Shown here: positions 3,001 through 61,403 of the stretch, piece after piece
Numbering within the stretch: position 1 is the stretch's first letter
Layout: each line of letters opens with the position of its first letter
DNA from: Globodera rostochiensis
Lineage: Eukaryota; Nematoda; Chromadorea; Rhabditida; Heteroderidae
Reading direction: 5' to 3'
NCBI GenBank assembly: GCA_018350325.1
Contig: JAEVLN010000001.1
Location: forward strand, 2,283,501-2,347,500
DNA: 64,000 bases
Program-made: the position numbers and the translations under genes
Notes under the pieces: generated by a model
What the model was told of the DNA's origin: nothing
The model's database searches: none
The model's input: the letters and a program-made list of their open reading frames with translations, nothing else

Positions 3001-6000
3001 TAAAAAAATTTCTGAAAAAACCAAAACGGTGAATTTTCCTTCTTTAAAAATTGTAAGAAAAAAAAATTGAGGGGTCGATTATTTCCCCCCCCCCCCTCTC
3101 TCATTGGCATTTTCCAAGGTTATTTTTTTCAGAGGACAATTGCAAGTCGGAAAAGTTGCGCGAACTCATTCTGGAGACCATCGGGCTCTACCCGCACCAG
3201 TACAGCTACCAGGCAAGGTAAAATGCAATTGCAATGAGCGGGCCCCTTCCAAAAAAACGCGGAAAAAATTTCCGTGGTTTTCCCCAATTTTACCATCACA
3301 GACATATGAAGCAAGTGGCGGAAAATCGGTTCGGCAACTGGTGGAGCGCGGTGATCATTAGCGAGCGGGGCGGCTACGGCATGAGTGCCATCTATGATCA
3401 GCACCAGAACACCAGGTCAAAGTGCAACAAGCCGAGGACAAAAACTCAATGACTTTAGTTGTTTTTGTTTCAGTTGCGAAGTCATGTTGTTCGACACATT
3501 CTACTGGCTGGGCAGGACGTGCTGACGACGAGGCGCATGCGACGGAACGCCAAACGCACACACACAAAAGCGAACATTGAACAAAAAACCAAACAAAAAG
3601 TCATCTCACACGCACATATTTCAACCCAAAAGCGATGTAAAAAAGGTGTTGTAACCCAATTTTACATATTAATTTAAGCGCATTTTTCATTAATTAATTA
3701 TTAATAAAAATGTTAAATTAAACAAACAAACAAACAAAATTTTTTACCGTCAAATTCGACCAGTCCTTTGTCCGCGGGCACCGAGCGCAGCCATTTGTTG
3801 GCAAACTCTTTGGACTGCAACGTCAGAAAGACGACGTTGCCGAGGAAAAAGCCGAGCGTTTGGCCAACAACATTGCAACTGTGTCAAAATTTTTAATTAA
3901 AAAAAATGATCGAAATGGCAAAAAAAAAAACATAAACCATCATTTTTTTTGGGGTTAATTATGTGTGAACAGTGAACAGAGCAATTGCACCCACCCCCAC
4001 ACCCATCCCGGCGAGTTAATTCCGGACCAAATCACTTGGATCAGAATAGAATTGCCGGTCCAAAACCAATCCCGGGATTTTTTTGGGTTCGGAATTTTCG
4101 AAAAAAAATCCCAAAAACCGACAACCCTAATTCAGAGAACCACAACGCGAGGGGAGGGGAAGGAGGTGATTGTCTTTAAGAAAGCTGAGGCTTACTCCTC
4201 CCTCAAAAAACTGGTTAAAAGCGTTCATTTACATCGCTTGTTCACAAATTTGAAAAAAAAAAAAAAAAGAATTTACGTGGACGCATATCCGACATTCTTG
4301 CGCGACAACATTGTCAGTGCCCAACCGTCCACCGCAATGTCCTGAGTGGCGGCCAAAAAGTTGAGGGGTAAAAACACGCAGACCAAAAAGTACACATTGG
4401 GCGCAACCTCTGAATTGTAAGAAGAGGAGGCTTATGCAAGAAAACACGAACAAAGACAAAACATTTAACAAAAAGAAAGAAAAAAATTATTTAAAGAAAA
4501 AAACATTTTCAGAAAATTGCATTCAGAATTCAGAATTACTGTACTTATTTAATTTTGATAGAACGACAAACTCTTTTTGGTCCACTTAGAGCCAAAAAAT
4601 GACCAGAATGGACGGAACCAATTGGCCAACATTTTTAATATATATATTTTTTTTTGCCAGGTTGGGTGGCCGGCCAAGGTAAACCCGAATTAAAAATAAA
4701 TTTTTTTAAAACCCAAAATAAATTTTAAAAAAAAGCCTCTAATTTAATCCCAACCCAACTTCATCATAAGGTAAGGCTATTTTCTAAAATTTTCTGTAAC
4801 CCCCCCCCCCCCCCGGCAACAGCACAAACACACTCACTATTTCCCCCCTTGTCTTGGGTGCCGAGTATTTCCTCAACATGGTAGGAGATGACAAGCAGAA
4901 ACAGGCCAATCAAATATTGGCATGGCACCTGAATTTTGAACATTTTTATATAAAAAAATCAGGACTCAAAAACACCCCCCCCAAAAACATACCATCCACG
5001 ACTTCCGGCGTCCAATGCGACGAAAGTAAATGGAATCGACAATTGGTGCCCACAACAATTTCATGCTAAAAAATCATCAAAAGTGAGATGGTTTTGCAAA
5101 TGTTAAATTAAAAACTTAAGAAACCAAAATCATTCTAGAAACCGGACCAATCGGAACTTGCGAATGCCATGCCCAGGGCCAGAGGGTTTACACATTTTTT
5201 TAAAGCGTTTTTAATGTCCGAATTTTTAAAAACGTTTACAAAAAAAAGAACACATCTCTGACGGACGCACTTGGGGAAACGTTCAAAAAATTTGTCATGA
5301 ATTCGGAAACGAAACCTGAATGGCCAATAGGCGAATGAGAACACCGCCTGTTCGGCATAAGTGATTTCTTTGGCTTGCAGAATGAGCGGAATGGCGGCGA
5401 TGAGACCGAGCGGGACGCCCTGAAGTTGGAAAAATAGTGGAAAAAATCCTCTTTTTTTGCGTAATTTTATTGCAAAAATTGTAACTAAAAATGGAAATTG
5501 TTTGATTCAAAGAAACGGTTAAAATAAAATTCAATTTAAGTTTTTCGAAAATTGAGACAAATCCTATAAAATTCTGCTACACTTTTAAAGAAAAGCGCAA
5601 CATTTTGATAAAATTATGGAGTAATTTAAACCTGAAGAAGATAAAGCAGCAACAACAAAAGTATGGAGCCAAAGTCGTCCTTCAGCTCATGTCGCGTCCG
5701 TCGGACCGACAGGAGGAGGCGTCCAACTGCTGTCTAAAAAAAATGCACTTTTGTTGTGTTGAAAGTCGCAAAATATTCAAAATGCAACCCCTAAAAGACT
5801 AAACATAGAGTTTTGTAAATAAAGCATGGTTATATGAATCCATCAACAGAACATCTTGCGCAGGATGGTTTCAACCTGGTCGCCACCATTGTCCAACTCC
5901 AGCTTCAACTTGTCGGCTGGATGCGTGCCGTAGTAGCCAAGATGGGTGTCAAAGGGCGCATAGTTGGACTCGCGTGCCAACAAATCCTCAAAATGTTCAG

Positions 6001-7490: not shown

Positions 7491-7856
7491 CTTCTCGCTG
7501 CCGGGCACCGTTGGTGTTGAAGCAGTATTTGGGACGCTTCCATTCATCTGCTGCTTTCCGTTGACCATGCCGATGTTGTTGTTGTTGTTGTTGTTCATCT
7601 CCGGCTGTATGCACAGCCTCTGGTTGGGCTGCTGGAGCCCGGCAATGGCAGAAATTGTGCTGCCCAAACTTTCCGACCGCTGTTGTGCAACGCCGCCATT
7701 TCTGCTTTGGTGTCGAGCATTGGCCAATTTGCCGCCCTCGCTTCCCCCGTTTTCCGAGCTGTTCAACGCCAAAATTTGACGATGATGTTCATCTTCGGCT
7801 GTTGCCGTTGTGTAGCCATCAGTTTTGGCATTGTTGGCGGGATGCACTGAGGCCAT
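7491..7856 (-). CDS. Orphan exon, Asn/Gln/Ser-rich, unknown protein
   Basis: A 122-codon open segment from ATG at 7856 to a good donor (GAGAAG then GTGTGT) at 7490/7491. Composition is Ser, Asn and Gln rich, with a run of seven Asn and a HANN-like low-complexity start. There is no recognisable domain. No downstream exon before the transporter at 6250 is obvious. It ends in phase 0, so it could be an upstream exon of the SLC33A1-like gene, a separate gene, or chance. Low confidence. Confidence 0.3.
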
Positions 7857-8085: not shown

Positions 8086-8196
8086 TAGGATTGTCGGTTC
8101 CAAACCAAACCGTAGAACTGGCATTTTTTTGATTTGGTTCTTCGGTTCGGGTCGGGTACCCGACGATCAGAACCTTCCCAAGAACCGACGACCCTA
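8086..8196. mobile_element. Short hAT-like MITE, GGTTC/GAACC word family
   Basis: 111 bp. Left end TAGGATTGTCGGTTC and the reverse complement of the right end TAGGGTCGTCGGTTC differ at two positions. Flanks ATCTGGAT (8078-8085) and ATCTGGAC (8197-8204) form an 8-bp target duplication with one mismatch. The interior repeats GGTTC/GAACC words around a GGGTACCC core. Confidence 0.75.
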
Positions 8197-9740: not shown

Positions 9741-9754
9741 CAGCACGACCGCCA

Positions 9755-16418: not shown

Positions 16419-17421
16419 ATGAGCGTAGACAAGTTCAGCCAACTAGGATTCCAAGCCAAGCCTGAATTAAACTGCAACAGTCTGATCATCAATGGCACGA
16501 AGTTCAAGCAGTTCAGTGGTGGCAAACGGCGTCGCATTGTGCATAAGGACCCGCCCCATGGCCATTTGGACACAAATTGCACCGCAATACGTGCCCGATG
16601 GCATTTTGTGGAGACGGCCGGCACGGCACGGGAGGCAAACTTTCCGTTGGCATTTGCGCGAACCGTGTTCAGTAGTGCTGCACGAGACCCAAAATTTCTC
16701 GATACTCGAGACTCGAGCCCGAGCCCGATACTTTACCTCGAGACTCGAGCCCGAGCCCGATACTTTACCTCGAGACTCGAGCCCGAGCCCGAGACCCAAA
16801 AAACCCGAGACTTTTCTCGAGTCGATACTCGATATCGAGACTTTCGTGCAGCACTAGTGTTCAGGGTATGGCTTCACATTTTACGCAATTGATTTTCTTC
16901 TTTAGAAAAGCATTCATTAGATTAACTGATTCAGATTTAAGCAGCGAGGAAGTAAATTTCAAGTTGCTTAAGAGAATTAAATTGAGAATTGTCATTTTGT
17001 ACTGAAAGAATTTTGATTTAAACTGGCGAAATATACATAAAACCGATTCTACAACTTTTTTGCAAAAAATTAGGGTTCTTTCCGACAAAATCCATAATTT
17101 TTGGGGGGTCTCTCAACCCCCCTCCCCCCCGGCGCTACCGGATTTGTGGGAATTTTACAATTTCAAAATTTGGAAATACCGTAATTTGAGCCCATAAAAA
17201 AGTGCGGAAGTCGGAATCAGCTGACTTCCTTAGCTTTAATCCTTTAGCCATGGTACAAAATTTCATACATTCACGCGTTGGCCCGCTGTTTCACCAACGT
17301 TGTCGTGCTGGCCGAGCAGTTCAGCGTGTTCAGCAACGGCAAAAACGTGACCAGGGCACAGTTGGCATGCCTGGAGGCAATGTTGCCGATGGGCAAGTGG
17401 AAATACGCGCTGTTGCTGCAG
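16419..17421 (+). pseudogene. Broken Core-2/I-branching (Branch, GT14-type) glycosyltransferase
   Basis: Exon A (from 16419) reads PELNCNSLIINGTKF, then LDTNCTAIRARWHF and ANFPLAFARTVF. Exon B (17248-17421) reads IHALARCFTNVVVL, NGKNVTRAQLACLEAML and GKWKYALLLQ. These match, in order, the NC-x-I, FPLAFAR, CFxNV, GxNxxxAxxxC and WKYxxxLQ landmarks of nematode Branch enzymes, which add beta-1,6-GlcNAc to glycans in the Golgi. Missing are the N-terminal TM anchor, the exon normally between A and B, and the NHD-containing exon after B. A weak LGANDEKLLQ piece near 17635-17670 may be the NGAND motif. Exon A carries the 184-bp element at 16673-16856. Exon B ends at a GC donor (CAG then GCAAAA). Probably a decaying gene; a short expressed form is not excluded. 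Confidence 0.65.
16665..16864. mobile_element. hAT-like MITE, CTCGAG word family, inside an exon
   Basis: Element 16673-16856 (184 bp) has perfect 13-bp inverted ends (TAGTGCTGCACGA / TCGTGCAGCACTA). The target site GTGTTCAG is duplicated exactly at 16665-16672 and 16857-16864. The interior is CTCGAG, GAGCCCGAGCCCGA and GATACTCGA words. The 8-bp duplication and TAGTGCTG end fit the hAT superfamily. No transposase is present. Element plus one duplication is 192 bp, which is 64 codons, and the glycosyltransferase frame stays open through it. Confidence 0.9.
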
Positions 17422-18035: not shown

Positions 18036-21000
18036 ATGTCAATTTTCCCTGAAAATTTTGGCATTCCGTTGGAAAAAGTGCCATCGATGGTCAATGCTTT
18101 TCCGCCTCCAATGAGTGCCGAAGAGTGCCAATGGGTGTCACGAATGCGAAACCATCGACTGTTTCAGCACCATGCCGAGCATTCTTCCGACTTTGATCTC
18201 CTCCGATGGGCCCTTGCGTACAGGTCGATTGAGGGGCCTAATAGCGTCAAAACGAATGCCAAAAATTGGGATTACAACTGAGTCCCAGCTGTTAGGGTTG
18301 TCGGTTCCGAACCGGACCGAACCCGAACTGTAGAAGAACCGGGTTAGGCTTTCTGTTAGGTTTACCCGAAAAAATTGGATCGGATACCCGAAGTAACAAC
18401 CCTATTCACAGCAAAAAACTAAAAGTTTAGATTAGCGTTAAGCCCAAAAAACCCTTCGGGGGATAAATTTCGGGGGGCGGGGCTGACCCCTCCCCCCAAA
18501 ATAAAATTATTTGTTTGTTTTGCAGAGGCGATGTGGAAGTTGCCATACGCAAATATCGCCGGTTGGTCAAATTTTGGGTTTAAAAAATCAAAAAGATTTT
18601 ATCATTTTGTAAGTCATCTGCGCGTCCGGCAACTGCTCCGTCTTGACGACATTGAACAGCTTGGCGACGAGGACGGCATTGACGAAGGTGCCGAACTGTA
18701 CGCGCCGATGGAAATTGTTGGCACGGTATAGGGATCGGACTTGCGGACCGATCCAAATTCACGATCGAGAATCTCTGTTGGAGTTTTAAGAGATGATTTT
18801 GATCGAGAATCTCGATCGCTCAAAAAATATCGATTGGAGTTTTAAGAGATGATTTTGATCGAGAATCAAAAAATATCGATTGGAGTTTTAAAAGATGATT
18901 TTGATCGAGAATCCTCGATCGGTCTGATCTCTAATCCAAAGCACACATTATACATGCAGATGAGCTCGACGGATGGCCGAATTTTGTTGCTGGAACGCTC
19001 TGGACAGTTCGAGTTGGACGTGATGATGAAGCGTACGGCTGGCGATTGATTTTTAATTTAAAGCAAAAAATTTCATTTCGGAAAACGTTTCTTGAATTAT
19101 GGATTTTTAAAAATGGACCCCGGTTTCCGAGACGGTTTCGTAGCTGGAAATGCGATTCCTGACCAATTTTTGTCATGGACTTGCGGACATGTGCAGAATT
19201 CGCGTCTAATTTCAGACATTCGGACAAGCGCTTTCATGTTGAACCGTTTCCGGTTGATGGAGCGCGTGCTGCGGGCCGTGCACGCGTCCGAGCGTGCCAG
19301 CGGACAGCCGCAAAGTGCCGTTCTGCTGATGGACCTGGAGGGCATGTGCCTGCAGGCGAACCTTGTCGGCTTCATTTCGGGTGCGCGCATGTTTTTTTTG
19401 TGCATGCAGTGTGTTCAATTTCCAACACTACCGTCTTGTTGTGTTCAGGTCCCTACCGCATCATGTGGGGCACGTTGATCGAGCAGTACCCGCAGTTGAT
19501 CAGCTCCATTCTGTTGCTGAACGCGCCCACCTTCATCAACGTGCTGTGGAGCGCCTGCGTGTCGTTCATCGGCGACGACTACAGACGGCGCGTGCACGTG
19601 TACGGCACCAACTGGCGCGAGCGTATCGCGCACGCAGTGCCACTTGACGCATTGCCGGAAGGGCAACCGTACGGCGGACGGCGACCGCACAATTTTAGGG
19701 TCAGTAACTCACTTCCTGGTAAATCTACATATTGACCGATCCAGACAGATCTGAATCATGTGACCCAGAAGATCTGCTTTTAGTTGTTTAAATACATAAA
19801 TTATGATCAATCCAGTAGATAAGAATCCGCCTGAGACAACTGATCAAAATGATCTCGAGTCTTTAGAGATGATCTAAATGGTAGTATCAAAATGAGCTAA
19901 CTGATTCTGATTTGATTCAAAGCGACTGATCATAATAGTCAGTCTGCTAGTCTCCTCCCCTGATCAATTGATCACAATTTTTTTGGGGTTCCGAAACTCG
20001 TGTCTAAACATTGATCTGAACTGATCTAACCTGCTGGACGCAGAAAGGAGAGATCAAATCGTGGCCAGAAAAATGTTTTTTTAATTTAAATAAAATTCTT
20101 TTAGAATCCTCAGCCTTGCCGTATTGCGCCATTGGACATTCCATCGGTTGAGCTCAGCGAACTTTGTCGGCTAAATATTCCGGCGGGTAAAAATTTTGAT
20201 TTAAAAATGTAAAAAAAAAATTCAATTAAAATTTCTTGCCCCCAAAAAAGGTGCGTTCGTAATCCAAACATTCTTTCTGTCGGTGGGTGAACAGCTCCAA
20301 TTTCTGTTGCGCAACGAAACGGAAATAACCATGAACATTTTCTTCAGTTTCACCAAAAAAGTTTGTTGCCTTAGGGGGGGGGGGGGGAGGAGTTGGGGTT
20401 GGGAGAGTTTGAAAATTTAAATTTTCAACAAAAAAGTATTATTACATTTTCAAAGTTTCTGCATCCCGACGAAATCGTTGCGATCCAACAAATGGACAAC
20501 AACAACGCAATGGACGAGACGAACTCGGCGGACCCTCCCGAGCTGGAAGAGGTTTTTGCCGGATGTGAAAGGCCCGGCATGCCAACCCTTGACACGTGGA
20601 AATGGGTGCGTGGATTGCCGGGATGTAACCGGATGCCGGATTTTTCCGGACATTTTTGGGCCCGGCATGCCGGATTCCGGACATTTTTGGGTCCGGCATG
20701 CCGGATTCCCCGGACATTTTTGGGTCCGGCATGCCGGATTCCCCGGACATTTTTGGGCCCGGCATGCCGGATTCCCCGGAGATTTTTGGGTCCGGCATGC
20801 CGAATTCCAGACATTTTTGTGGAGCTTTTTGGTTCGACATGCCGGATTTCCGGAGAATAATATCCCTAAATGGTTTGGTCATCAAAAATTGTCAAAAAAT
20901 TTATGAAAACAAAAACAAACAAAAAAACATTTTTCTCAGCGTGCTCCCAAGGCCGGCTTTTATCATTTGGTGCTTGGCAACGAGAAGGTGGGGATGATTG

Positions 21001-35202: not shown

Positions 35203-36345
35203 TTAGATCTGACCATCACCGGACCCACCCAAAAACTGCTGCACATCAAAACTCATCATTATATTTGTTGTTATCCACCTACCTATTTTATCATCATCAC
35301 TGCGTTCATTTTTCATCTTCGTTTTATTTATTTATTTTTTTGTTTTGTTGTCCTCGTCCTCCACCAACTTCAACGTGTTATATTAATTCCACATTTTTTT
35401 TTGTATGTGTGTTTCTGTTATGTTTTTTTTCTTTTGCTTGTTTGTTTTTGTTGATGTTGTACTTCGGTTGTCCACTTTTTTGCATTGTCGATCCGTCCCT
35501 CATTTTTTTTGTTCCATGTGATCAGCAGTGATCAAAGCTTTCAACAAAAAGAGAGGGTGAAGCAGTGGAAAAGGCAAAAATTCAATGCTTTCAACAAAAA
35601 CAACAGCGAAAAATGACATGCATAAATAAAACATATGTACCAGGGATGGGAACTTCGGAACTCGGAATTCCGAGCCCAAAAAATGTCGGAAGTCGGAACT
35701 TCGGAATTCCGACCATCAGCTGATATGTACATAGTAAGCGCTTGTCAATTTTTTACTAAAGAGAAAATAACCCAAAATGATTTTTTGGATTAATTTAATG
35801 TTCTCTATGCTATGCCCGTTTTTTTTTTGCAAGATTTGGCATCGGTGAAAAGCACGTTCGATCACAATCCCGAACTTCCTCGGCGAGACTCCCTTTACAC
35901 ATCTTCGCATAACTAAGCATCGCGCCTTAAATCATGGAACGTGAAAAAACGAGTTTAATTTAAACCATTATCCAATTCACCAAAAATCATTTCAGCAGGG
36001 CGCAATTCACACGAAAAGTGCAAAATATAATAAATTTTGGTGGGAGAGATGATTGAAATCCAAACGTTGGCGGGTGGGGGGGGGGGGGGGTGGGGGCTGA
36101 TACAATGAATCAATGAATAAATTGACAACTTGAAAGGGGCAGAAAATATTTCTATTTATAAAATCGAGCAGCAACATAGGGGTAGCAGTTTTTGTGGCGG
36201 GTGTAACAGGTAGATTTTGTGTATGTATGTGCTTTTTTTGCTTCCTGAATGGCAATTTGTGTCTCCAAAACGTATCGACATAATTCAAAATGATAAATAT
36301 TTTGATTGGTCCTCCTCCGCCTTCGTCACTTTGACCCTCTCAAGC
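35203..36345. other. Convergent 3' spacer between transportin and FOXO
   Basis: T-rich 3' UTR of transportin, then the element at 35641-35722, then a G-run at 36077-36090 near the FOXO end. No gene seen. Confidence 0.6.
35633..35730. mobile_element. hAT-like MITE, GGAATTCCG word family
   Basis: Element 35641-35722 (82 bp) begins CAGGGATGGGAAC, a typical hAT end, and its right end reads CAGCTGATGG in reverse complement. The target site ATATGTAC is exactly duplicated at 35633-35640 and 35723-35730. The interior repeats CTTCGGAA, CGGAATTCCGA and GTCGGAA words. Confidence 0.85.
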
Positions 36346-39300
36346 TCATGGCAAATCAAACTGTCCGCCCTGCGCCAGATCGTGGCGCAACATCGATTCC
36401 ACGTCCAGGTCGCTGAGCAGTGCCTGGTCCACCGACATTGCGTTCACATTCTCCAGGTCCAACGGCAACGCGCCGACACCGCCCGGGCTGGACACAACGA
36501 ATTGCCCAATGCCGGAGGCATTGATCAGGTTGATGTTGTTGTTTTGGTGATGATGCGGGGACATCGACGAAGACATCATCATCATCTGGTGTTGTTGTTG
36601 TCCGCCGGCTACTGCTTGACCACCGACCAACGGAGGCCCGGCGGGCATCCAAACGCCGCCGCCGGGGGGCATCGACTGGTAGGGGCCGCAACCGTTGCCA
36701 ATTGTGGTGGGAAGAAATGCGGGCGACGACTGAACAATGGAGGAGGTGCTGAAGATGTTCGGCGGAGCTGACGATGAACAGGGCGCCATCGACAACGAGG
36801 TGCTGATACTGCACAAAATTGATGGGAAATAATCAATAAAAACCCCGGCACACAACACAACTCACTTCGCCCCCATTTTCATCTGCGGCGGTGACGGAGT
36901 GCCGCCGCCGCCAATGCCAAGCTGACGCAGCAACGGGTTGGTCTGCAGCGGCGGTGCAGCACGACGCACAGAGCTCAGCTCTTGATAAGAGGGCGGCGGC
37001 GGGATGCCCGGGGGTGACGGCTCTTGCTGAAAGATTTGCTTTCCTACAAATTTTCAAAACGGACGGACGGACCTTGTTCGGCAAGGGCTGTTGTTCAGCA
37101 ACAACACAAATTTCGTTCTTCGTCATCAACATTGTCGTGGATGAGGCTGCGGACGACGATTGAGACTGGGAAGCGTCGCCACCAATCTCCATCTTGATCA
37201 CGCCTGAAACAATTTTTAAATTTATTTACCATTTCAAGGTCTAAGACATCAAGAAATAATGCCATTACCCCAAAAAAATAATAATTTATTTAATCCAAAA
37301 TTCAACAAATTCAGCACCAACCGTTCATCGTCCTGTTGTGCTGCTGCTGCTCCACCACCACCACCTCCAGCCTCATCTGATCAGTGCGGTCAAGCAGTTC
37401 GTTGACCTGCGGGTTCATCGCCGACGATGCTGCTGCACATCTTGGCCCACCATTGCTGCCGTTCTGCTGAATTTTGTTGACACCGCCACCATTTTGTTGC
37501 TGTTGATGAACAACAACGGTGTTTGTGGTTGTGGCCGTGGTGCCGGCCATGGACGACGTCTGCTGTTCTTCCATCCAAGAGGGGAAGGAGAAGTCGTCAA
37601 AGGTGGGCGACTCGAAGGTGGTGGACGACTCGAGCGTAGGCGACAGTCGCGAGGAGGAGGGACCGCCGACCACGGACAGCGTGGACTGTGCACGAGGCCT
37701 ACACATACGCACAAAATTTGTTGTGAAAAATAGGTATTTTTGTGTGTTGCCACCTGAACGTCTCGAAGTTGGGCCCAGTCGGCGGAGCGTTGAGAACAAT
37801 GTGCTGTTGTTGTTGTTGTTGCTGTTCAGTAGAGCCGCCGTCATTGCCAGAGAACAGAGACTGCTGGGCGCCAATAATGGACACCATGGAGGCGGAGGAG
37901 CAACCGGTGCCCTTCTGATGCACCAGCGTTTCGACACGTTTGCGCGCCCCGCGCCGCTTCTTGTCAATGGCCGTCTACAAAAAGCAATGTCACAAATATT
38001 TTAAATTTTAAACATGGGAAACGGTTTCGACATTTAACAAAAATTTATAATGTTCAAACTTCTGCTTCAATACGTTCACAGTGCTTTTTTGTATTTAGAG
38101 ATTCAATTTTTCCCCCCACAAAATTACGCCCAAAATGTTCTTTTGCTGTCCGCCCGCCCGCCCACCTTGGTGGCCGCTTCCATCGTGTTCGCCCGTCTGC
38201 GCGGGTTTCTGCCCGGCTTCGCGTCCGGGTTGATCACCCACCACGAACTCTTTCCAGCCCCCTCATTCTGAATGCGCATGAAACGGCTGTGCAGCGACAG
38301 GTTGTGCCGGATGGAGTTCTAAAAACAAATCATGCACATTTCTAAATTACCTAAGAAATCGGCAATCGAAATTTTTTTTAGCTATTTTTCGACAATTTTT
38401 TGTTTTTGGGGATGCATGGGTTTTGTTGTACCTATCTACAAATTCAACATTTTATAGCAGTCAAGGCTTGTTATAAAATTAGTCGAGGACCCACCAATGT
38501 CTTCAATTTTACTGGAAATGATCAAACAAACCCAATTTGCTTAATTTGATCGCGATTGGTCAATCAACCCGCGGGGTTGGATGGGTCCAATCAAAGGCAA
38601 CAAAACGGTGGGAGGTTGGGGGTTGGACACTTTGGGTCGCAAGTGTGTTACTACCTTCCACCCCTGGGCATCTTCCTGGCTGGACCGTTGCGCAAAATAG
38701 GGAATATTGTCCGAGAACCACTGGTAAACTTCATTGAGCTTCAAGCGCCCGTCAACGGCACAGCTAAGCGCGCGCGCAATCAAGTCCGAGTAGGACTCCT
38801 CGCCCCAGGGGTTGGGCTTTTTGTGGGAGTGCTGTTGTTGACCACAGTCGGGCGCCCCGTCGGCGGTGCGCCGCCGGACGCGCTTCGGCTTTGGCCTCGT
38901 CAGTGCCCAGCCGTCATTGTCCAACTGGCCGAATTGGGCAGAGAATGAGGCGCTGCTGAACGCGCCAGCGGACAACATTGGTGGTGGTTGTACAGCATGA
39001 TGCTGCCGTTGTTGTTGTTGCTGTCCATCGGAGAAAGAGGGTGAAAACGGATGCGATGTTGAGGGTTCAGCACCGGTTAACACGGAGGAAGAGGAACCAC
39101 CAATGATGCTGTTCAGCGACGGAAACTTGGACGAAATTGCAGGGGGTGTTGAACTGGCCGCCGAGCAGGCCATGCCCACAAAATGCCGTTGATGATGATG
39201 CTGCTGCTGCTGTGGTGGAGATTGCAAAGCAATAACAGCAACCGAAGAAGTTGGTGCTGATACAGCTCCAAATTGTGGGACGGGCCATGTGTAGCAACGC

Positions 39301-39494
39301 CCGCGGGGCTCCAGATCACCCGGGAACGAGTTATTATCATCGTCGTCCTCCTCCTCATCGTCGTTGGCCATGGTTGTTGTGGAGTCGCTGTTGCTATTGT
39401 CCACTTCACCGGACTGTGCCACCGCTTCCGCCCCTCCTCTTCCTCCTCGTCCACTTTCGTTGTCCCCACCAATAATCATGTTCGGGGGCTCCAT
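36346..39494 (-). CDS. daf-16: FOXO transcription factor (DAF-16), proximal (b-type) form
   Basis: Exons 39494-38655, 38318-38166, 37974-37754, 37698-37322, 37203-37073, 37026-36866, 36808-36346; 781 aa, all junctions in phase. The first exon holds an AKT site in PRGRCYTWP and the first forkhead half, [18 protein letters not shown] to [17 protein letters not shown], matching C. elegans DAF-16B. Shared exons give [20 protein letters not shown] with the recognition helix and [13 protein letters not shown], then a second AKT site RRRANTM, a third RPRAQST, a conserved [19 protein letters not shown] region, [13 protein letters not shown], and the transactivation tail [20 protein letters not shown]. 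So all three AKT sites of insulin-regulated FOXO are kept. It is longer than the C. elegans protein because of Gln/Gly/Ser tracts. It acts in the nucleus when insulin/AKT signalling is low, and in nematodes controls dauer-like arrest and stress survival. Confidence 0.95.
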
Positions 39495-41905
39495 TTTGTC
39501 GGTAGTTGTTGAGGAGTTGTGGTGATAACGGTAGCGATTGTGATGGAATTGTGGATGAAAATGGCGGAAGCGGGAAACAACATTGGAATTGGAGAACTCA
39601 GAATTTTAGGGAATATATATATTTGAAATTGGAGAACAGAATTTGAGTGAGAATATGTACGTATGTGTGCGTGTAGGAGGCGGATGGGTTCAAATCGACT
39701 GGCTGCAAAATGAAACGCGTAATTGGAGCAAAATGGGGGGGGGGGGGGGGAAAGAAAAAATAGATAGGGCGAAAACAACACGGGCCGGTGACAAAATCGA
39801 CCGGTACAATGAAAAAGACGACTTTCTGTGTGTGTCTGATTCTCTGATATGGGCCGATTCGGGGTGATGGTTTGGGGGGGGGGGTGGAATATGTAGTTGC
39901 TGGCTGAACGATGGGGCAAAAAGAGAGGAGGCAAGAGCAACACCTTCAATTGAAAAGAGTAGGAGGAGAAGGAGGAGGAGGGGGAGGAGGAGGGGGAGGA
40001 GTAGGAGGAGGAGGGGGAGGAGTAGGAGGAGGAGGGGGAGGAGTAGGAGGGGGGGGGGAGGCGGTTGTGCGTGGGAGGAAAAGAGTGGCGACTTTCCCTT
40101 CTCCGGCCGGAGAAGAGTCCAATTTTTGTTTCATTTTATGAACGTAAACAAGTGCAAAGACGAAGGATCGGGGGAGGAGGAAGAAGGAGAGGAAGAGAAG
40201 AAAGTGAGCGGCGAGCGTTCGCCTGAATAAAATTTTGTATTTTGAAACATTTGCCAAAAGTGGGAAGTATGGGTCTTTTCGTTTTTGGATTCACCTACCT
40301 ATTTTTATTCATGTCCTTTTTTTGTCCATAAATTCTAAAATTAACCAAAAACTTTTGCTTTTGAACGTTTTAGCATATTAAATTAGCACGACACTGTCAC
40401 AGCGGATAAGTGTGATGATCCGCTGCACGGAGGACCTCAAAAGACGACGAATGGATATAGATGGATGGGTGTGGGGGGGGAGGCGGGGAGAGGGTCACCA
40501 AAATCCATCGTATGGGAACGACGAAACTCGGGAGGGTATGGGGGGGGCGGGAAATTGTTGGAAGGATAATGGAACGGAAGAAAGCGGAGCAGGGACAGCG
40601 AGTGGGAGGAGGAAAGTGGAGGGAGGGAGGGGGCTGGAAGGTCATCGACGGACGAACGGGGGGTGGTGGACGACGAGAAAGGGGCAGGAAGGTGAATGGG
40701 GGAAAGGAATGCATTTTGGGAAGAATGTGGGAGCAGAGGAGTGGACGGACGGACGATGTGAAGGACACAAAGGATGGACGGGGGGATGAAAAGGAAGGAA
40801 GGATGATGACGGGGTTGAGGGAGGGATGGGGGGGGGATGACGGCAATTTGGGGGGTTCTCTCAGCTACTGACGAAGAGGGGAGGGGGGGGGGGGGGAGGA
40901 GCGAGGGAAAAGAGTAAAAAGTGGGGGGGGGGTATACTATGCTGCTGCTATATGCACGGGAGATGGGAGGGGGAGGGGGGGGGGGAAGGGAATGGACATT
41001 TGGCGGACGGCCGGGCGGAGCGGGCCACAGAGTCCGCGCCGGAGCAGAGCGGTCGTCGGTCGGTGAAAGGATGACGAATGGAAGTGGATGAGGACGAATG
41101 GATGGGTGGGGCAGGGGGAAGAGGAAGGAGAGATATTATTGATCGGAAAGTGGTGAATGGAGGAGGACGGGGACAGTTGGGACGGTGGGGGGGGGGGGAG
41201 GGGGGGGGGGGGAACTCTGGGGACACAATTGAGCCAAGAGGAAAAAAAAAAGCGAGTGAAAAAGTGTGCGAGAAAGAGCCCTAGGCAGGGAGAAAGAGTA
41301 AGCGAAAAGAGAAAGGAAAGAAAGAAAGAGAGGGGAGAAAGGAAGCGTGCACATCGACGGAAGAGGAAGAGGGGGGGGCAATGAAATGAGGGGAGGAGCT
41401 GTACGAAATGAGGACACAGGCGGACGGACGGACGGACGGACAGCAGCAGAAGGCACCCACACATATCTAACCAACCAACCAATCTCTCTCCCATTTCCCC
41501 ACCAATTTTGATGATAATCCCATCCCACCACCACTCACACACACATCAAGGCCTCGTTAATCACGGGGGTTGGGGGGGGGGAGGGGAGGGGACACTCCCT
41601 TCCCCCCACAATCCCCCCCCCGCCCCCCCAACGGCTGCAATGCAAAAAATTTTGTGATGAGTAATTAATTGGGCGAAAGGGGTGGACGGAATGAACAAAT
41701 TTTGGGGACACAAATTGCGGGGGGGGGGGGGTGGGGAGAAGCGCCGCGCAAAATTTTGGCAAATTGGAGGGGTCGCGCGCGCCAGGAAGAGGCCCACCCA
41801 ACGAATTCCCCGCGCGCGTCACCGAGCGAACAAAATTTAATTTTTGTTCAACAAAAAAAAAAAACCGTATAAATTTGTGCCACAATTAAAATGCCGAGAC
41901 CACAC
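39495..41905. repeat. FOXO a-form intron: purine-strand tracts and G-runs
   Basis: From about 39735 to 41420 the plus strand is almost continuous G/A (GGAGGAGGAGGGG-type repeats at 39960-40060, many runs of 8 or more G). Long minus-strand Pro/Ser open segments here are by-products of that composition. Being directly upstream of the b-type first exon, it is also where the b promoter must lie. Confidence 0.7.
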
Positions 41906-44880
41906 CTTCCATCCGGCACTGCTGTTGGAGTCGCCCTTGTCCCTGAAGTAGGACACATTCTGCACCATCCACTCGTACACTTAAAAATGAAATTTGCTCT
42001 TTTATAGTAATCTTCCGTTTCTTTTTTGTTGGTTGCAAAATTTATGCCAAATTTTTTCATTAACAAAAATGTGTCAATTAATGTTTAACATAGAGGTGTA
42101 GGTCATTTTGTTTCGGTGTTGAACCCGAACAGAACGGTCAACAAAATTAGCATCACAAAAAAAGTAAAAAAAAAAAAAACCCTCGAAAATCGACGAAAAC
42201 CGATCAAAAATCAAAAAAAAAAATTTTCTGTGATCCGACCTTCTGGATCGGGAATAGGACCCGATCAATTTGTTGAAAAAGCACTAATAATTTAAAACAA
42301 AAACAACAACAAAATGTGTGGTCACTGCTCGCTAACCTTGCGAAAGGGTCAATCGCTTTTCGGGCGAGTCCGAGATGGCCCTCGTGATCAAATCCGCGTA
42401 CGACATGTTGCCCCATGCGTTGCGACGCGTCGTCGACTTTTTGGTGCCCGACGGGGGCGAATCGGTGCGCGAGCACGAGTCGCCGATGGCCGAGTCCGGA
42501 CGACCAAGTGGTGACATTCTGAAAAAAAAACCATCAAAAATCGTAAAATTTTTCTTAAATTTTCGAGGTCCTGATTTGGTTTTCAATTTCCGTATCACAA
42601 CTAGAGACCGGACAGGACATGGTCTTGACAGGATTTTCCAGGATTTCTGATCCGGAATCCTGGTATTCGCCGAAGCACCAGGATCAGGATACTATCCTGA
42701 AAACCCAGGATTTTGATCCTGCTGGTAAATCCTGATCCTGGTCATTTCCAAATCCTGATCCCGACTTTTTCAACATTCCTGTCTCTAGTCACAACAAATC
42801 AATCCCGAACGTACTCATCACTGTGGAACGCGTCGTGCAGTCCGTCCACGCCGCTGCACGGACTCTCCGCCATCATCGTCTCGCAGCACAGTCCGGCACC
42901 CGCCAGCGTGCCGTTGCTGCTGTTGGAGCCGCCGCCGACGCTCATCTGATGGCATCCATTGGTGGTGACCATGGCTGCGTCGTGACATTGCTGTTGCAGC
43001 AACAAATGGCGATGGTGGTCATCTCCACCACCTGCAACACAACCACCGTCAATGGCGTCCGACTCCTCGTCGTCGTACATGCTGAAAATGGGGGAATTTT
43101 AATAAAATCCGGTGTTCAAAATTCTATTTTTTTTTTTTAATTTTTAATAAATTTTGATCTAAAATATTTGTGTGGCATGGCGGGGCACCTTTCTTCTTCC
43201 GGAATTCGTTCATGGATCAGCGGCGAGGTCTGCGAGTTGCCACCCTCGAGGCCCATTGCACGACGCAGTGGCCACGTGTTGCAACGGTCGCGTGCCAACT
43301 GAAAAAAAGAAACAAAATATTCAAAAATTAAATTTGGAAAACTTTCCAAAGGAATTTTTGGCATTTTTGGGCCCCAATTTTTGCTTTCAAGCAGTAGTAT
43401 ATGTAGAAAGAAACATTGAGAACATAAAAAATGCACTGTTTTTGCACCAGTTTTTGACCACCGACCGGCTCCAACTCCTCGAGCGGCTCCGTGCCACGGA
43501 CGTCCGGCGAGAAGTTGGAATGGTGGTGGTGCAACGGCGGCTGTCCTCCTCCTCCGCCGCTGCCGAAGCCGCCGCTCAGCGAGGAAAGGCCGGAATCGTT
43601 GGCGCCTCCGCTGGCACCGCTTAGGTGGACAAGGCGCGTCTGCGAGCCGGACCCGCTGCTGGCCGGCGAGCACAGACACGGGTCCATCGGCGGAAGGCCA
43701 CCAACGGAGGACGACGAAGGCGGTGCGGCGGTGCCAAGTTGACAAATTGTGGAGCCGGACGCCGTCTAAAATAGGCGGAGCAAATTTTTATTCAAAATTG
43801 TCGTTTCTTTCTAAACCAACAAACAAAAAAAAAGAGGTTGGAATCTCAACAAAATCTTCAGAGAGGGGCTCGAGCCCACGACAATTTTTTGAAAACCCCA
43901 AAATTGGAGGAAGCACTGAAAATTCCAGAATTTTATAGCAAACCCTCCCTCCCCCCCCCCCCCACCCGTTCCCAGTCCACTGTCGTGTCCCGATGACGGA
44001 TTTGTTCAAAAATGTCCAGCTCTACTGCTCCCAAATGTGGAGGGGGGAAGCATTGCCTGGAATAAATAGGAGGAGCCACCGGCACCGCAAGCGGGCGGCG
44101 GGTTTGGCTCAACGACGGAAAGAGCGGCGGTGCCAGAAACGGAGGGCGAACACGGCAAATTCATCAGTTCTGTAGAGAGAAATTGAGCAAGTAAAAAAAA
44201 AAGACTTTTTGGGCAGTGTAAAAATGTTCACTAATCTTCTGTTAATCAAAAAACTGTAAAAAAATTGTCCTATTTGGAAGTTTGAAACAATTTCTTTAAA
44301 AAAAATTGTCAGTATCGAAACTCAAATCAAACCCAATCCGGAAAGCAATTGAAAAAAAACGATTTTATCGTCCCCCAAATTTCCACCTCCAAATTGGTGC
44401 TGCTGCTGCTGCTGCTGTCGTCCACCTACAAATTGTTGGCCAAATTCGTTCATCTCCTGTTGCTGTTGGCCTCCCATTTTTGCCATGCTATCAGCCCAAA
44501 ACAACGACGACGGCTGTTGCGGTTGTGTTGCAGTTACGTCTAGGAAAATTTGTTCCTGTTGCTGATTGTTAAACAATTGTTGTTGTTGTTGTTGCTGCTG
44601 CTGTTGTTGCGTGATGGTCGAAACTGAGCACAACACCGGGTTCGCGGCGGCGAACAGCGCCAACGGCGAGGGCGACGACGTTGCGGATGGCGGAGTCAGA
44701 TTCGGACTGAGTTGTGTTGCAGTTACTGCTTGAATTGATGTCGTCTGTGTTGAGGGTGAAGCCGCCACCAGCCAACGACGGGAATGCTGCTGGTGGTGGT
44801 AATGGTTGGACGGAGAGTGTTCAGCGGTTGTGGCCGAAATTTTGACTGTTGTTGATCACACCGTTTCAAAAAAGAAGCGA
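41906..44880 (-). CDS. daf-16: FOXO distal (a-type) alternative 5' exons
   Basis: Five well-supported exons in phase, 43765-43466, 43298-43189, 43081-42815, 42518-42337 and 41979-41906 (311 codons), splice to the shared exon at 38318. They encode [13 protein letters not shown] (AKT site), [32 protein letters not shown] and [20 protein letters not shown], which match DAF-16A and differ from the b-type forkhead half. Further 5', an exon at about 44172-44050 ([12 protein letters not shown]) and a Gln-rich exon about 44880-44370, with two poly-Gln runs, join in phase and probably belong here. The start codon and the junction near 44050 are unresolved. Transcription would start at least 5 kb upstream of the b form. 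Confidence 0.85.
42594..42795. mobile_element. hAT-like MITE, CCAGGAT/ATCCTGG word family, in FOXO intron
   Basis: Element 42602-42787 (186 bp) starts TAGAGACCGGA, and its right end is TCCTGTCTCTA. Flanks ATCACAAC (42594-42601) and GTCACAAC (42788-42795) are an 8-bp duplication with one mismatch. The interior alternates CCAGGATT, AATCCTGG and GATCCTG words. Same family as 58629-58804. Confidence 0.85.
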
Positions 44881-47768: not shown

Positions 47769-47905
47769 TAGAGCCCGGCGCGGGAGCGGATCCCGCGCGG
47801 GATTTTGCGGGACCCGCTCCGCAATCCCGCATTTTTTTGCGTTTTGCGGCGATCCCGCACGACTTTCCGAAAAAAAAATCCCACAGCGGGATCCCGCAAA
47901 TGCGA
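47769..47905. repeat. GGGATCCCGC word patch, possible truncated MITE
   Basis: Begins TAGAGCCCGGCGCGGGAGC, like a MITE end, followed by repeated GCGGGATCCCGC and CGGGACCCGCTCCGC words in both orientations. No matching right end found, so it may be truncated. Confidence 0.5.
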
Positions 47906-48664
47906 TTTTGCCGAGTAATGCCGACAAAGAAAAATGCCCGAAAAGGTTTCGGCGAAATTGCTGAAAATTGTTTCGAAAATGAAATTGTAAAATGGAAAAA
48001 TGCTTCACTTTTAGACAGACATCGAAAAAGTGACACAATAAAAGCCTAACACATAATGAATTTTATTTTAATATTGTTGAGCAGCAGAGCAGTTTCAAAT
48101 GGCCACCAAAATTGTTTGATTTTGATTAGCTAACAAAAAAAAAAGCTTGAAAATGAATATGAAAAAGCATTTTGTGAAGGCCCACCCAACCGAAGACAAC
48201 AAAAAAAAACATGTGCGAGCTGTACAACAACACACCCAAACGTGGCATTGAGGTCGTGTGAATCGATCTCGGAGGACGAGGGGACGTCCCAATACTTATG
48301 ACGAAGGACGATGGCATTTGGGTGAGGGGGAGGGGGAGGGGGGGGGGGAGATGAAGAAATCTGCTTTAAAAATGTGTCGTCTCAGTAATTCAACTTCCTC
48401 CTCCCCCAGTAATAATAACAAACGCATGCATGTCCGGGACAACATGTTCAAGCTGTACTTGCATGTCCAGACAAAACTTTTTCCTAAGTAAACGGAAGCT
48501 AAAATATTGAACGGATTATTTAATGATGAAATATTTCCCCATTGATGGGATTATTTTGGCAGATAGGAAGCTCGAATTAAGGGTTTAAACGAGGGGGGTG
48601 GTCCGCGGCTCTTTTGGGGACAGCTCGTTCGGGGATTAACGGTGGCGACAGTCATGGCGGGCGG

Positions 48665-49410
48665 TGGTCGGGGAAGAATCCCCAAAAAATGTCGGGGTTT
48701 GGGGCTCGGGGATGAGTCCACAAAAATGTCGGGGTTTGGATCTCGGGGATAAGGCCCAAAAATGTCGGGGTTTGGATCTCGGGGATAAGGCCCAAAAATG
48801 TCGGGGTTTAGGGGGTCGGGGAAGAGTCCCAAAAATGTCGGGGTTTGGATCTCGGGGATAAGGCCCAAAAATGTCGGGGTTTGGAGGTCGGGGAGGTGTC
48901 CCCAAAAATGTCGGGGTTTAGGGGTCGGGGAAGAGTCCACAAAAATGTCGGGGTTTGAATCTCGGGGATAAGACCCAAAAATGTCGGGATTTGGATCTCG
49001 GGGATAAGGCCCAAAAATGTCAGGGTTTGAATCTCGGGGATAAGACCCAAAAATGTCGGGATTTGGATCTCGGGGATAAGGCCCAAAAATGTCAGGGTTT
49101 GAATCTCGGGGATAAGGCCCAAAAATGTCGGGGTTTGAATCTCGGGGATAAGGCCCAAAAATGTCGGGATTTGGATCTCGGGGATAAGGCCCAAAAATGT
49201 CAGGGTTTGAATCTCGGGGATAAGGCCCAAAAATGTCGGGATTTGGATCTCGGGGATAAGGCCCAAAAATGTCAGGGTTTGAATCTCGGGGATAAGGCCC
49301 AAAAATGTCGGGATTTGGATCTCGGGGTGGATCTCGGGGATAAGGCCCAAAAATAACGGGGTTTGGATTTCGGGGATAAGGCTCAAAAATGTCGGGGTTT
49401 GGGGGTTGGG
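48665..49410. repeat. 36-bp satellite with a 72-bp higher-order unit
   Basis: About 20 units of GTCGGGGTTTGGATCTCGGG plus GATAAGGCCCAAAAAT (36 bp). From 48950 on, two variants alternate, GTCGGGATTTGGATC and GTCAGGGTTTGAATC, so the true period there is 72 bp. As 36 is divisible by three, all frames on both strands stay open for long stretches; these are not genes. Confidence 0.95.
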
Positions 49411-49559
49411 GATCCAAAATCCAACTTTAGTCCAAGCTTAGAAGACTTAGGGGCCCGACCCACGAGTTGGGTCTGTGTGTGTGTCTCCATTTGTGTCACC
49501 GTTTTCGCAAGGGTTCGGTCCCCCCCCCCCCCCCCCACAAAACTCACTCACAACTTCGA

Positions 49560-58300: not shown

Positions 58301-58470
58301 TTTTGAATAATTACAAATTCTTAAAAAAACAACAAAATTTCTCAAATTTTCTCGGACGATGCCCATCGGCACCGCCAATCCCCCCCCCCCCCCTCGCCTC
58401 TCCTCAAAAAAATATTTTTTTAGAAAATTCCGGTAAAAATTTGCTCAGCAACGAATGTGTTCGGCCGTCG
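55319..58470. other. No supported gene; GATC-rich patch at 56885-57060
   Basis: Low-complexity C and G runs (for example G19 at 56513-56531). 56885-57060 holds many GATC words (CTGATCGATCAACCAA in two near copies about 38 bp apart). 57890-58008 has GTCTCGGGTCTCGACC and a right end GCATCACTA, perhaps another decayed element. No coding exon recognised. Confidence 0.4.
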
Positions 58471-61403
58471 ATGAGTCACGTGACACCAGCATATGGCCAA
58501 CTGAGTGCTGAGATGGCCAACGCGAAGCAGCCATTTGCCACAATGTGCGCGAGATGCAAACGGATGTAAGTTCCACCGCCACCACCGGACTCGGCAGGTT
58601 CAATTTCCTAATGAAAAACGGTGACCTGTAGAGACCGGACTGGATCTGGATCACCAGATCTGAAGTTTTCTGGATCCAGATCCAGAAATCCAGGTATTCT
58701 CCACGATCCTGGATTTTCTGGATCTGGATTTTTAATCCAAAAAATCCAGATCCAGGCTCATGTCCAAAATCCAGATCCAGGTTTTTTCAAAATTCCGGTC
58801 TCTAGTGACCGGTACCCTGCCGTTTTTGAAAAAAAAATTTTTGCAAAAAAAGAGCCCGGAATTCGCCGAATTTGAACATTTAGAAACTTGTACAAACGAT
58901 CGTCGATCAGCAAAAAGCTGAATTTCGTTCTGATCACTTTGTCTGCTTTAGGAAGTCGGCATTGAACCGACTCATTTTTGGAAGCCGAGCCCGGCCATCC
59001 GACGACGATGGAGAGGAGGACACCGCACCTTTTGCTGGCGAAGGCTCAAGTCGAAGTGCCTCGACCGTCTCGGACTATACGGAATTGCATCGGGGATCCG
59101 TAAGAAAATTTGGAAAAAAAAACAATTTTTTTAAATAATAAAAACGGGGGGCGGTGGTGGTTCAGACGCTCAGTTTCAGAGCGTGTTGGTCCATTGCTTG
59201 GGTTTTGGAAAAACAAAACGTTTCCAACTTTTAGGGGAGTCCGATGGTTGACAATTTTGTTTAAATTTCAAAAATTTTGTACTTTAACAATTTTTTTTGA
59301 CCAATTTTCTTAACAAATTCACGTCAAAAGTTCAAAAAAAAAATTTAAAATTTAGCACCCTCGGGTTTTCACGCCTTGAGTGAACAAAAATTTGTCAAGA
59401 CATTTGTTGTTGTTTTTTTCATTTCCTTCAAAACTTTTTTTTTTGAGTTTATCAAGCAGTTCAGGTGCCGTGCCCGTCCTGCAAAGGCACCGGCCTGATC
59501 CCGAAGGAATTGGAGAGCACTTTGGTCGCGCTGATTCCCGTCAATGATGAGCGACTAAAGCCGAAGAAAACGTAAATTTTTTGAACATTTTTTCAAAAAC
59601 AAAATTTTTTTTTTCTAAACCGGGCTCAAATATATTACTAATTAAATGTTGTTTTTTTGGTAACGTTTTTTCTTGCTTATACACTAGACACTTTTTGGGT
59701 TTTTTGATGGACAATTTTTTTTTTTATTGTATTATAAATATGGACGCTAAATATTTGGCCAATTCCGTTTCGAGTTGATTTGACTTTCTTTACAAAATAC
59801 ATTTTTGTGTTCATCGGAAGGCTGGGGAATGCTTTTTTTCGTTTACTGCCTAATCATTTTTCTGATCGTTTTGTTGCGCAATATTTTTCTGATCATTTTG
59901 TTGCGCAATATTTTTCTGATCATTTTGTTGTGCAATATTTTTCTGATCATTTTGTTGCGCAATATTTTTCTGATCATTTTGTTGTGCAATATTTTTCTGA
60001 TCATTTTGTTGTGCAATATTTTTCTGATCATTTTGTTGCGCAATATTTTTCTGATCATTTTGTTGTGCAATATTTTTCTGATCATTTTGTTGTGCAATAT
60101 TTTTCTGATCGTTTTGTTGCGCAATATTTTCTGATCATTTTGTTGCGCAATATTTTTCTGATCATTTTGTTGTGCAATATTTTTCTGATCATTTTGTTGT
60201 GCAATATTTTTCTGATCATTTTGTTGTGCAATATTTTTCTGATCATTTTGTTGTGCAATATTTTTCTGATCATTTTGTTGTGCAATATTTTTCTGATCAT
60301 TTTGTTGTGCAATATTTTTCTGATCATTTTGTTGTGCAATATTTTTCTGATCATTTTGTTGTGCAATATTTTTCTGATCATTTTGTTGTGCAATATTTTT
60401 CTGATCATTTTGTTGCGCAATATTTGCTCTGATCACTTTTCAGTTGGTTGGTCGTGTCCGCATGGGTGCTGTTCTGCGTGTTCATCGGTGTCTGTTTGCT
60501 GTTTTTGTTGATGCCGCGCACGGTGATGTTGAGCAGTAATCGGACACCCGTCGAAGTGGTCAACGTCACGGATCACAATGAGAGCTTGTCGTTCATTGAC
60601 TTTAACTTTTTGGTAAAATTTGTAACAATTTTAATTGTTTTTTTTTTTTTAAATTTGACGCGCACAGAATCACATCAACGTGACCAGCGGCAATTACATC
60701 CCGGTGGACTTGACCAAACTCAGCGTGACAATTGTGTCCAGATTTCAGGTCGCGCGCGCAAATTATGACAAATTTTTTTTTGTTTCATTTTTATTTCAAC
60801 TTTTTTGATTTAAAAAAGCGAAAAAATTTGTGGAAAACTTCGTTTTTAGGCCTTGCCCCCACCATTTTAGGCTGGATTCAATCAAAACATCTTGGGATGG
60901 AGCCTAAAAACAATTGGTCTCACCCTAATTTTGTACAATTTCAAGCCCGTGGGGTCTGTCTGGTTCTGAAACCCCCCGGGGGGTTTTTCTATGAGTGTTT
61001 TAATATGGCACTGAACACGTACAACACTGATAATAATAATTGCTTATTGTACTCTGTCATGCAAAAACAACGTAACGCGCGCACATTTTTTAGCCCTGGT
61101 CAACGGACATTGTTGGGACGGGCAAAAATGTGACAATTTCCGCGCTCATGCCGTTGGTGTTGTACCGCTCAACGCGCGAGGTGGCGTTCAACAACAGCGT
61201 GACACTCAAAGATGTGGTCGCGTAAGTTGGGAGGGGGGGGGGGGGTGGGTGCGCAGGACGTTCAACTCCACATTTGTACTTGCCCAATTACTTGGACCAG
61301 TTTTCGAACTCTGAGGCTTGGGGAGCTCGAGCTAACGTTGGTGGTGTACAAATTTTATCATGGCGCTTCTCCAAATATTAAATTTTGCATTCTGAAGAGA
61401 TGA
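58471..61403 (+). CDS. TMEM106-like type II membrane protein
   Basis: Homolog of late-endosome/lysosome TMEM106 proteins. Exons 58471-58565, 58952-59099, 59465-59571, 60444-60612, 60668-60748, 61094-61216, 61257-61403; 289 aa (human TMEM106B 274). The N-terminal cytosolic part has an acidic Ser-rich stretch and SDYTELHRGS, then the CxxC motif CPSCKGTGLIPKELES and ALIPVNDERLKPKKT, close to the family's CPTCQGTG...ALIPYSDQRL. A TM follows: WLVVSAWVLFCVFIGVCLLF. The lumenal part has several N-glycosylation sites (NVTD, NHINVTSG, KNVTISAL, NNSVTL), and the end CTCP...LELTLVVYKFYHGA fits the family's C-terminal Cys-to-beta region. The final donor (GTG then GTCGCG) is weak and chosen by phase; the 5' start may lie in an unseen upstream exon. 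Intron 1 holds a MITE, intron 3 a satellite. Confidence 0.85.
58621..58812. mobile_element. hAT-like MITE, CCAGATC/GATCTGG word family, in TMEM106 intron
   Basis: Element 58629-58804 (176 bp) has 11-bp perfect inverted ends, TAGAGACCGGA / TCCGGTCTCTA. Flanks GTGACCTG (58621-58628) and GTGACCGG (58805-58812) are an 8-bp duplication with one mismatch. The interior is TGGATCCAGATCCAG-type words in both orientations. Confidence 0.9.
59853..60426. repeat. 27-bp satellite inside TMEM106 intron 3
   Basis: About 21 units of CTGATCATTTTGTTGTGCAA plus TATTTTT. Units differ mainly by GTGCAATA or GCGCAATA. One unit near 60121-60131 has one T fewer, which shifts the phase of the long open reading frames that a 27-bp period creates. 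Each unit holds a TGATCA palindrome. It ends 18 bp before the exon at 60444. Confidence 0.95.

Follow-up and report, generated by a model that had tools for sequence, protein, structure and literature searches.

The 64-kb stretch of the Globodera rostochiensis genome analysed here (contig JAEVLN010000001.1, positions 2,283,501 to 2,347,500; hereafter the window) contains nine short elements which an earlier note on this DNA had proposed to be tiny hAT-like transposons, with inverted ends starting TAG or CAG, 8-bp target site duplications (TSDs) and interiors made of one short word iterated in both orientations. The hAT consensus terminal inverted repeat (TIR) starts with TAG or CAG. As judged from their relatives in the 92.6-Mb assembly (80 contigs), the window elements are non-autonomous hAT miniature inverted-repeat transposable elements (MITEs), and such short elements probably derive from longer parents in which the inverted tips enclose two direct, word-bearing blocks. 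The window elements are listed below and will be referred to by their first position, loci retrieved in the genome searches by their L numbers.

4047..4129 (4048 in the earlier note): 83-bp degraded relative of the 8086 group, TIR with 3/12 mismatches, TSD with 3/8 mismatches
8086..8196: 111-bp hAT-like MITE, tip TAGGRTYGTCGG, word GGTTC/GAACC, TSD ATCTGGAT/ATCTGGAC (1 mismatch)
16673..16856: 184-bp hAT MITE, tip TAGTGCTGCACG, word CTCGAG/CGAGAC, TSD GTGTTCAG (exact), right end towards the window start and left end at the far side
18293..18404: 112-bp relative of the 8086 group, word CCGAAC/ACCCGA, no 8-bp TSD (6 mismatches)
18729..18933: 205-bp element with the word GATCGA, TIR 10/12, no TSD (7 mismatches)
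35641..35722: 82-bp hAT MITE, tip CAGGGATGG, word TCGGAA/TTCCGA, TSD ATATGTAC (exact), one tip altered, right end first
42602..42787: 186-bp hAT MITE, tip TAGAGACCGG, word ATCCTG/CAGGAT, TSD ATCACAAC/GTCACAAC (1 mismatch), left end first
47769..47925: approximate remnant, left tip TAGAGCCCGG followed by a GCGGGA/ATCCCGC word array
58629..58804: 176-bp hAT MITE, tip TAGAGACCGG, word CTGGATC/CCAGATCC, TSD GTGACCTG/GTGACCGG (1 mismatch), left end first

A blind scan of the window for TAG/CAG...CTA/CTG ends (12-bp TIRs with at most three mismatches, span 50-1500 bp) gave 249 TIR pairs, which were flanked by duplications with at most one mismatch in two cases for 6 bp, one for 7 bp, four for 8 bp and none for 9-12 bp, while chance would account for about 0.095 8-bp duplications at equal base frequencies. 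The four 8-bp matches, 8086-8196 (1 mismatch), 16673-16856 (exact), 42602-42787 (1) and 58629-58804 (1), had all been named in the earlier note. Together with 35641, five of the nine elements thus have an exact or one-mismatch 8-bp TSD, and the proposed combination of TAG/CAG ends with 8-bp TSDs holds for these five but is not confirmed for 4048, 18293, 18729 and 47769. Short TAG/CAG TIRs as such are found in the window, those of 4048 and 35641 being weak and 47769 having one tip alone; for the latter, a far end with a duplication was sought within 1.5 kb and none was found. The far tip of 35641-35722 matches at 5/10 positions without gaps, and by eye fits the left tip of L025 when a small insertion is allowed. 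The mismatch at 8086 itself probably reflects later decay, since L107, where this element recurs between matching flanks, is bounded by an exact TSD. The word class of 18729 recurs in L116, a locus with the tip TAGAGACCGG, and an Rfam scan of the window at the gathering threshold gave no match.

With respect to the interiors, the count of canonical 6-mer pairs exceeded that of all 200 dinucleotide shuffles in seven of the nine window elements (16673, 18293, 35641, 42602, 58629, 18729 and 47769), the boundaries used for 4048, 18293, 18729 and 47769 being approximate or off by 1-3 bases. The claim of interiors consisting of family-specific iterated words is therefore borne out for these seven but not for 8086 and 4048, where 3/200 and 7/200 shuffles, respectively, were equally high.

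None of the window elements is long enough to encode a transposase, but hAT dimer domains occur in relatives with the same kind of ends, and an N-terminal BED zinc finger is likewise present among the relatives. Genome-wide there are at least 100 matches to the hAT dimer domain (PF05699), and at 14 of the 30 best of these loci an exact 8-bp TSD and a TIR pair span the dimer domain. Among the 45 BED zinc finger matches, seven of the eight loci combining BED and dimer domains are elements of 2242-2962 bp with exact 8-bp TSDs and 12-bp TIRs with 0-1 mismatch; element ends were sought at the joined locus L034+L074 and not found. The BED- and dimer-bearing elements L069 and L070 match 16673 in tip type and word, L025 (hAT dimer domain, 1269-2423) is a relative of 35641, and L016 and L017 match 97-bp elements within L042; the tip of L023 ends in CGA. 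As to the catalytic core, a sub-threshold DUF659 match was obtained in an L071 frame. At loci with TAGAG-type tips (the surroundings of the first eight tips listed and of 30 BLAST matches, the window's own included) element sizes range from 97 to 1185 bp, and 22 of the 38 loci have a TSD with at most one mismatch, corresponding to 18 distinct elements, 58629 included, once repeated views and duplicated copies were merged by hand. The hAT assignment is thereby supported, and relatives that have the same kinds of ends and carry transposase domains, of the sort the earlier note had suggested looking for, do exist.

Two elements occur at C34:224959/C5:1714220 and C34:357428/C5:1581754 (G000) on opposite strands with equal scores; the two contigs may be duplicates or alleles of each other, in which case copy numbers would be overestimated. 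Separately, G000:C11:100852-112057 carries five dimer-domain matches on one strand at about 2.7-kb spacing, each with one TGA, and is a tandem array of a broken hAT-derived unit.

The relatives reveal where the words reside. Long TAGAG-type elements have an ordinary middle with a word array at each end, while the short ones consist of arrays alone. In 30 elements of more than 400 bp, 56 of the 60 subterminal 180-bp stretches beat all 200 shuffles, with a median excess of 8.4-fold, as opposed to three of the 30 middles (0.95-fold); among shorter elements, 21/24 exceed all shuffles. The total of 54 counts the nine from the window, multiple copies of one family and some elements that were found with a word-rich query. 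Arrays reach a density of 15 exact 6-mers in 200 bp, and words are most often spaced 6-7 bp apart, a lesser excess being seen at 40. In all 12 families of known coding strand, the first left-end word (one mismatch allowed) starts 9-16 bp from the tip, which explains why the word resembles subterminal sequence, as had been noted. At right ends, an A/T run covers position ~22 in 9/12 families (p = 0.0004, circular shifts, maximum over positions), compared with 0-1 of 12 left ends. Two other candidate left-end signals were rejected, namely a fixed T-tract at ~+56 (5/12 families share the position, p = 0.11) and a fixed A/T run (6/12 families at +93, p = 0.13). Words occur in both orientations as claimed, yet with a polarity: among 11 families with non-palindromic words, the majority direction is the same in absolute terms at both ends in eight, opposite in two and tied in one.

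The repertoire is broad. Loci with a dimer or BED domain carry CGAGAC, CCGAGA, ACCGGGA, CGGGACC, CGGGGA, TCGAAA, ACCAGAA, AACCGA, ACCGAA, ACCCGA, CGGGAA, CGGTAC, CGGTAA, TCTCGA, CCTGGA and TCGGAA, i.e., about 16 word families in one genome, several of them related; for L078, L079, L081, L087 and L090 the 5' side alone was examined, and no tip was identified for L079 and L081. ATCCAG, TCGTAA, TAGGCA and ATATGC are added by elements without a detected domain. The tip TAGAGACCGG occurs 698+652 (1350) times in the genome, versus 312+30 (342) for the reversed control pattern, whose own asymmetry between forward and reverse may point to a clustered directional repeat. A survey of 27 such tips on contig C1, taken in listing order with obvious second ends and the window's own skipped (stretches of ~440 bp for 20 of them, words read by eye), gave TCTCGA-type words at eight, CGGTAC at three, CCGAGA and CTGGAT/CCTGGA-type words at two each, and GATCGA, ATATGC and TCCCGA at one each. 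L117 and L118 are possibly the two ends of one 805-bp element, with a TSD of 6 mismatches.

The structure of the long elements becomes apparent when their two ends are compared with each other. In 19 long elements whose left and right ends were aligned with the 12-bp tips left out, the direct alignment outscored the inverted one in every case, defining direct blocks of 28-202 bp with 78-100% identity, 17 of which scored above all 100 randomisations in which the right end was shuffled in 12-base chunks. Such blocks are also present in elements that carry BED and dimer domains, and the direct arrangement accords with the word polarity described above. In the sister elements L069 and L070, the left ends (81.5) and the right ends (119) are more alike between the elements than left and right are within each (59.5 and 54), so that the double block probably predates their divergence; on the same end-by-end likeness, the idea that the two ends of an element homogenise each other was rejected. 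L070 and L072 show little such difference (57 and 45 between, 54 and 55.5 within).

In turn, the short elements can be read as combinations of these two ends. For 12 of 20, a left and a right parental part that overlap by 60-113 bp account for the element to within one base. Thus 16673 consists of L070 left 2-86 (98%) and right 172-1 (95%) with a 74-bp overlap, and 58629 combines a left and a right part of L040 with an overlap of 107 bp. All 19 classifiable short elements comprise one left and one right parental end, though 12 of them came from a BLAST search with the left+right element 58629, which favours this outcome; the other seven are four window elements (58629, the query, among them), L006 and two in L042. 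Elements 8086, 4048, 18293, 18729 and 47769 as well as L001, L003 and L008 were omitted from the classification, being long or having no usable reference, and the reference L040 itself is without a detected domain. The lengths expected from such a collapse fit three of five parents: L070 predicts 183 bp, with 184 seen in 16673 and 184, 178 and 183 in three relatives; L069 predicts 189, with 184 seen; and L040 predicts 186, with 186, 176, 159, 183, 189, 108, 193, 171, 195, 185 and 366 seen. Of 16 relatives of 16673 that were retrieved, four are complete with an exact or one-mismatch TSD, and 11 of the remaining 12 are ends of longer copies, continuing past the right array into their interiors. 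Some arrays have in addition grown: L106 1-951 (G000:C9:1541380-1542330) belongs to the 16673 type and is lengthened by a 32-bp unit repeated in tandem in nine exact and 21 near copies, a minisatellite inside a mini-transposon, and in L068 a right-end segment is repeated.

A solo long terminal repeat (LTR) forms when the interior between two direct terminal repeats is lost and one repeat is left. In much the same way, the short elements, as hAT MITEs, probably come from parents with inverted tips and direct blocks of the family word, the interior having been lost between the blocks. In such a parent, the transposase body would cut inverted tips of about 10 bp, each followed inwards by a copy of one family-specific word-array block, with the two copies in direct orientation. 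Recombination, slippage or faulty gap repair may have removed everything between the two blocks, and the product would be left tip, one shared array and right tip. A single shared array between two tips would make an interior look built from its own ends. The parental BED zinc finger, which is N-terminal, putatively binds the word, and words may differ among families because the BED fingers diverged. The ends would remain unequal, right ends usually with an A/T block ~22 bp from the tip, and later tandem duplication could stretch some arrays. Mobilisation presumably occurs in trans, and the deletion presumably ran from long to short by one of the routes named.

The relation between words and BED fingers is consistent with this account. 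Similar fingers go with similar words in L070/L072 (CGAGAC-CCGAGA) and L071/L078 (CCGGGA-CGGGAC), and the fingers of L087 (tip TAGAGCCCGG, word CGGGAA) and L090 (tip TAGAGATCGG, word CGGTAC) are distant from each other. Across 12 families, word distance correlates with BED distance (rho = 0.26, p = 0.028); in the 10 families with tips the values are 0.39 (p = 0.011) for word and BED, 0.27 (p = 0.08) for tip and BED, and 0.31 (p = 0.03) for word and tip. On a tree of the dimer domain (~80 residues), five families with the tips TAGAG[AC]CCG or TAGTGTTCG cluster (L028 from one tip), requiring two changes, a number as low in 2/500 shuffles, although strict monophyly appears in 15% of bootstraps. 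Four of these five have a known word, and the four words differ. The same or nearly the same tip carries CTGGATC, TCTCGA, CGGTAC, CGGGAA or GATCGA, and hence the word was not copied from the tip. Arrays of transposase-binding sites, one of the possibilities originally raised, offer the best explanation of the words, with binding by the BED finger predicted from the sequences. No strong word array was found upstream of the BED fingers of L080 and L084, which are possibly host genes or old, domesticated copies, and the matches to the L076 BED frame in the PDB all looked spurious.

Several observations weigh against the proposed origin. The direct blocks of L030 (16/100 shuffles as high) and L009 (1/100) are not beyond all chunk shuffles, and the long elements L040, L041, L045 and L047 came from a word-rich query. 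Left and right parts fail to account for the whole of eight of the 20 short elements, namely 42602 (163/186 covered by L040), 35641 (60/82 covered by L025), L006, L056, L066, L068 and both elements in L042. L016 predicts a product of 180 bp where 97, 97 and 141 are seen, and L025 one of 144 where 82 is seen. The word-BED correlation is weak and its families are partly related, and J21 and J29 have fairly close BED fingers with different words. By eye, none of the dimer matches listed lies beside the CCAGATCC or GGTTC groups; similarly, none of the six BLAST matches of the 8086 group (the window's own included) lies beside a listed dimer match. Elements 4048 and 18293 are without an acceptable 8-bp TSD, and of the 27 TAGAGACCGG tips surveyed on contig C1, nine have no obvious word by eye and just five are accompanied within reach by a partner tip along with a TSD of no more than one mismatch.

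Amongst the alternatives, the reverse order of events is improbable but fares best. Here, the short element would have come first, and long ones would have arisen when an array acquired an interior (filler or a transposase gene) with a duplicated block on either side. Sequence alone gives no date for either form, and the non-coding-looking long elements L040 and L001 have different interiors; on the other hand, direct blocks are found in elements with BED and dimer domains, and the likeness of L069 and L070 places the double-block state probably before their split. It is very improbable that the words were kept for DNA structure or result from satellite-like drift, with no protein reading them. 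Palindromes are common among the words (CTCGAG, GGAATTCC, GGTACC), and tandem growth is seen in some arrays; yet non-palindromic words (AACCGA, ACCCGA, ACCAGAA) serve equally, words are common to both ends of an element and confined to these ends, and they are similar where the BED fingers are similar, as in L070/L072 and L071/L078.

Hairpin-driven end amplification, by which an element would have made its interior through inward copying of its own tip via a hairpin or foldback, as the earlier note had suggested, is hardly credible, since, even though the word often starts directly after the tip, both ends of long elements hold one block and units do expand in tandem (L068, L106), the short elements are left+right in 19/19 cases, the repeated blocks are direct and not inverted, unrelated words sit on the same or nearly the same tips, and only three of 30 middles exceed all shuffles.

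Returning to collapse between direct blocks as the preferred origin, a wider generalisation can tentatively be put forward, although the odds are somewhat against it in its full extent. There might be an LTR-like class of hATs, with inverted tips for the catalytic body and direct arrays for the BED finger, in which the word is exchangeable on a near-fixed tip, many private sets of transposase and MITEs coexist in one genome, recombination to mobile solo elements is a repeatable route to MITEs, and finger-word pairs amount to a readable BED-to-DNA code.

Apart from these elements, the window contains a frame at 38541-39605 (minus strand) with a forkhead domain, whose named protein relatives are from nematodes, many of them FOXO or daf-16, and long open frames of short tandem peptide repeats at 59843-60439 (NIAQQNDQK) and 48551-49426 (PNPDIFGPYPRD).

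In the open-access literature, no direct subterminal blocks of hATs, no short elements as collapse products and nothing on word diversity among the hATs of one genome were found in titles and abstracts among the matches listed. Not found in print, and apparently new here, are the direct blocks in inverted tips, the collapse products and the many words on similar tips within a genome. The origin of MITEs is usually inferred from simple internal deletions, and direct blocks would give a predictable route. Moreover, the DNA preference of a BED finger could be read off the element carrying it, with about 16 word families to draw on, and annotators should expect short palindrome-rich patches to be mini-hATs.

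Transposase-read subterminal words as such are already known from Ac, Hermes, Herves, Kat1 and hAT protein motifs (PMC3260210, PMC10368747, PMC3143072, PMC4763223, PMC8097297), namely AAACGG in Ac, AAGT in Hermes and CG/AATTCAT in Herves, with AATTCA proposed for Kat1. In the maize hAT system Ac/Ds, an 11-bp TIR is likewise combined with a short word, AAACGG, repeated in the terminal 200 bp, and short derivatives keep tips and words; however, there is one word family there and many per genome here, and the direct-block plan is not mentioned in the text available (PMC3260210). The insect element Hermes resembles the present elements in its tip, where the first BED site adjoins the TIR and is quasi-palindromic, and in its asymmetric ends, its sites, the subterminal repeat (STR) AAGT, being bound by BED with opposite orientation at the two ends, whereas the arrays described here are denser than those in the portion of PMC10368747 available. 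In the mosquito hAT Herves, the motif CG/AATTCAT is repeated at both, unequal, ends and suffices for transposase binding, but a single family is concerned and the excerpt does not describe a shared direct block (PMC3143072). CGG-binding proteins and their parent hATs have diverse, mostly CGG/CGC-type motifs matching their own subterminal regions, similar to the CG in 11/12 top words here, although, according to the part available, motifs were measured there and are predicted here from DNA alone (PMC8097297). The Mar MITEs of Drosophila are also attributed to internal deletion of a full-length parent; in contrast to the present elements, iterated words or direct blocks are not seen in the sections available (PMC3517528). 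Beyond the hATs, the closest parallel is the solo LTR, which shares the loss between direct repeats, with the difference that here a TIR-bounded DNA transposon is concerned in which both tips survive, so that the collapse product could still be mobile.
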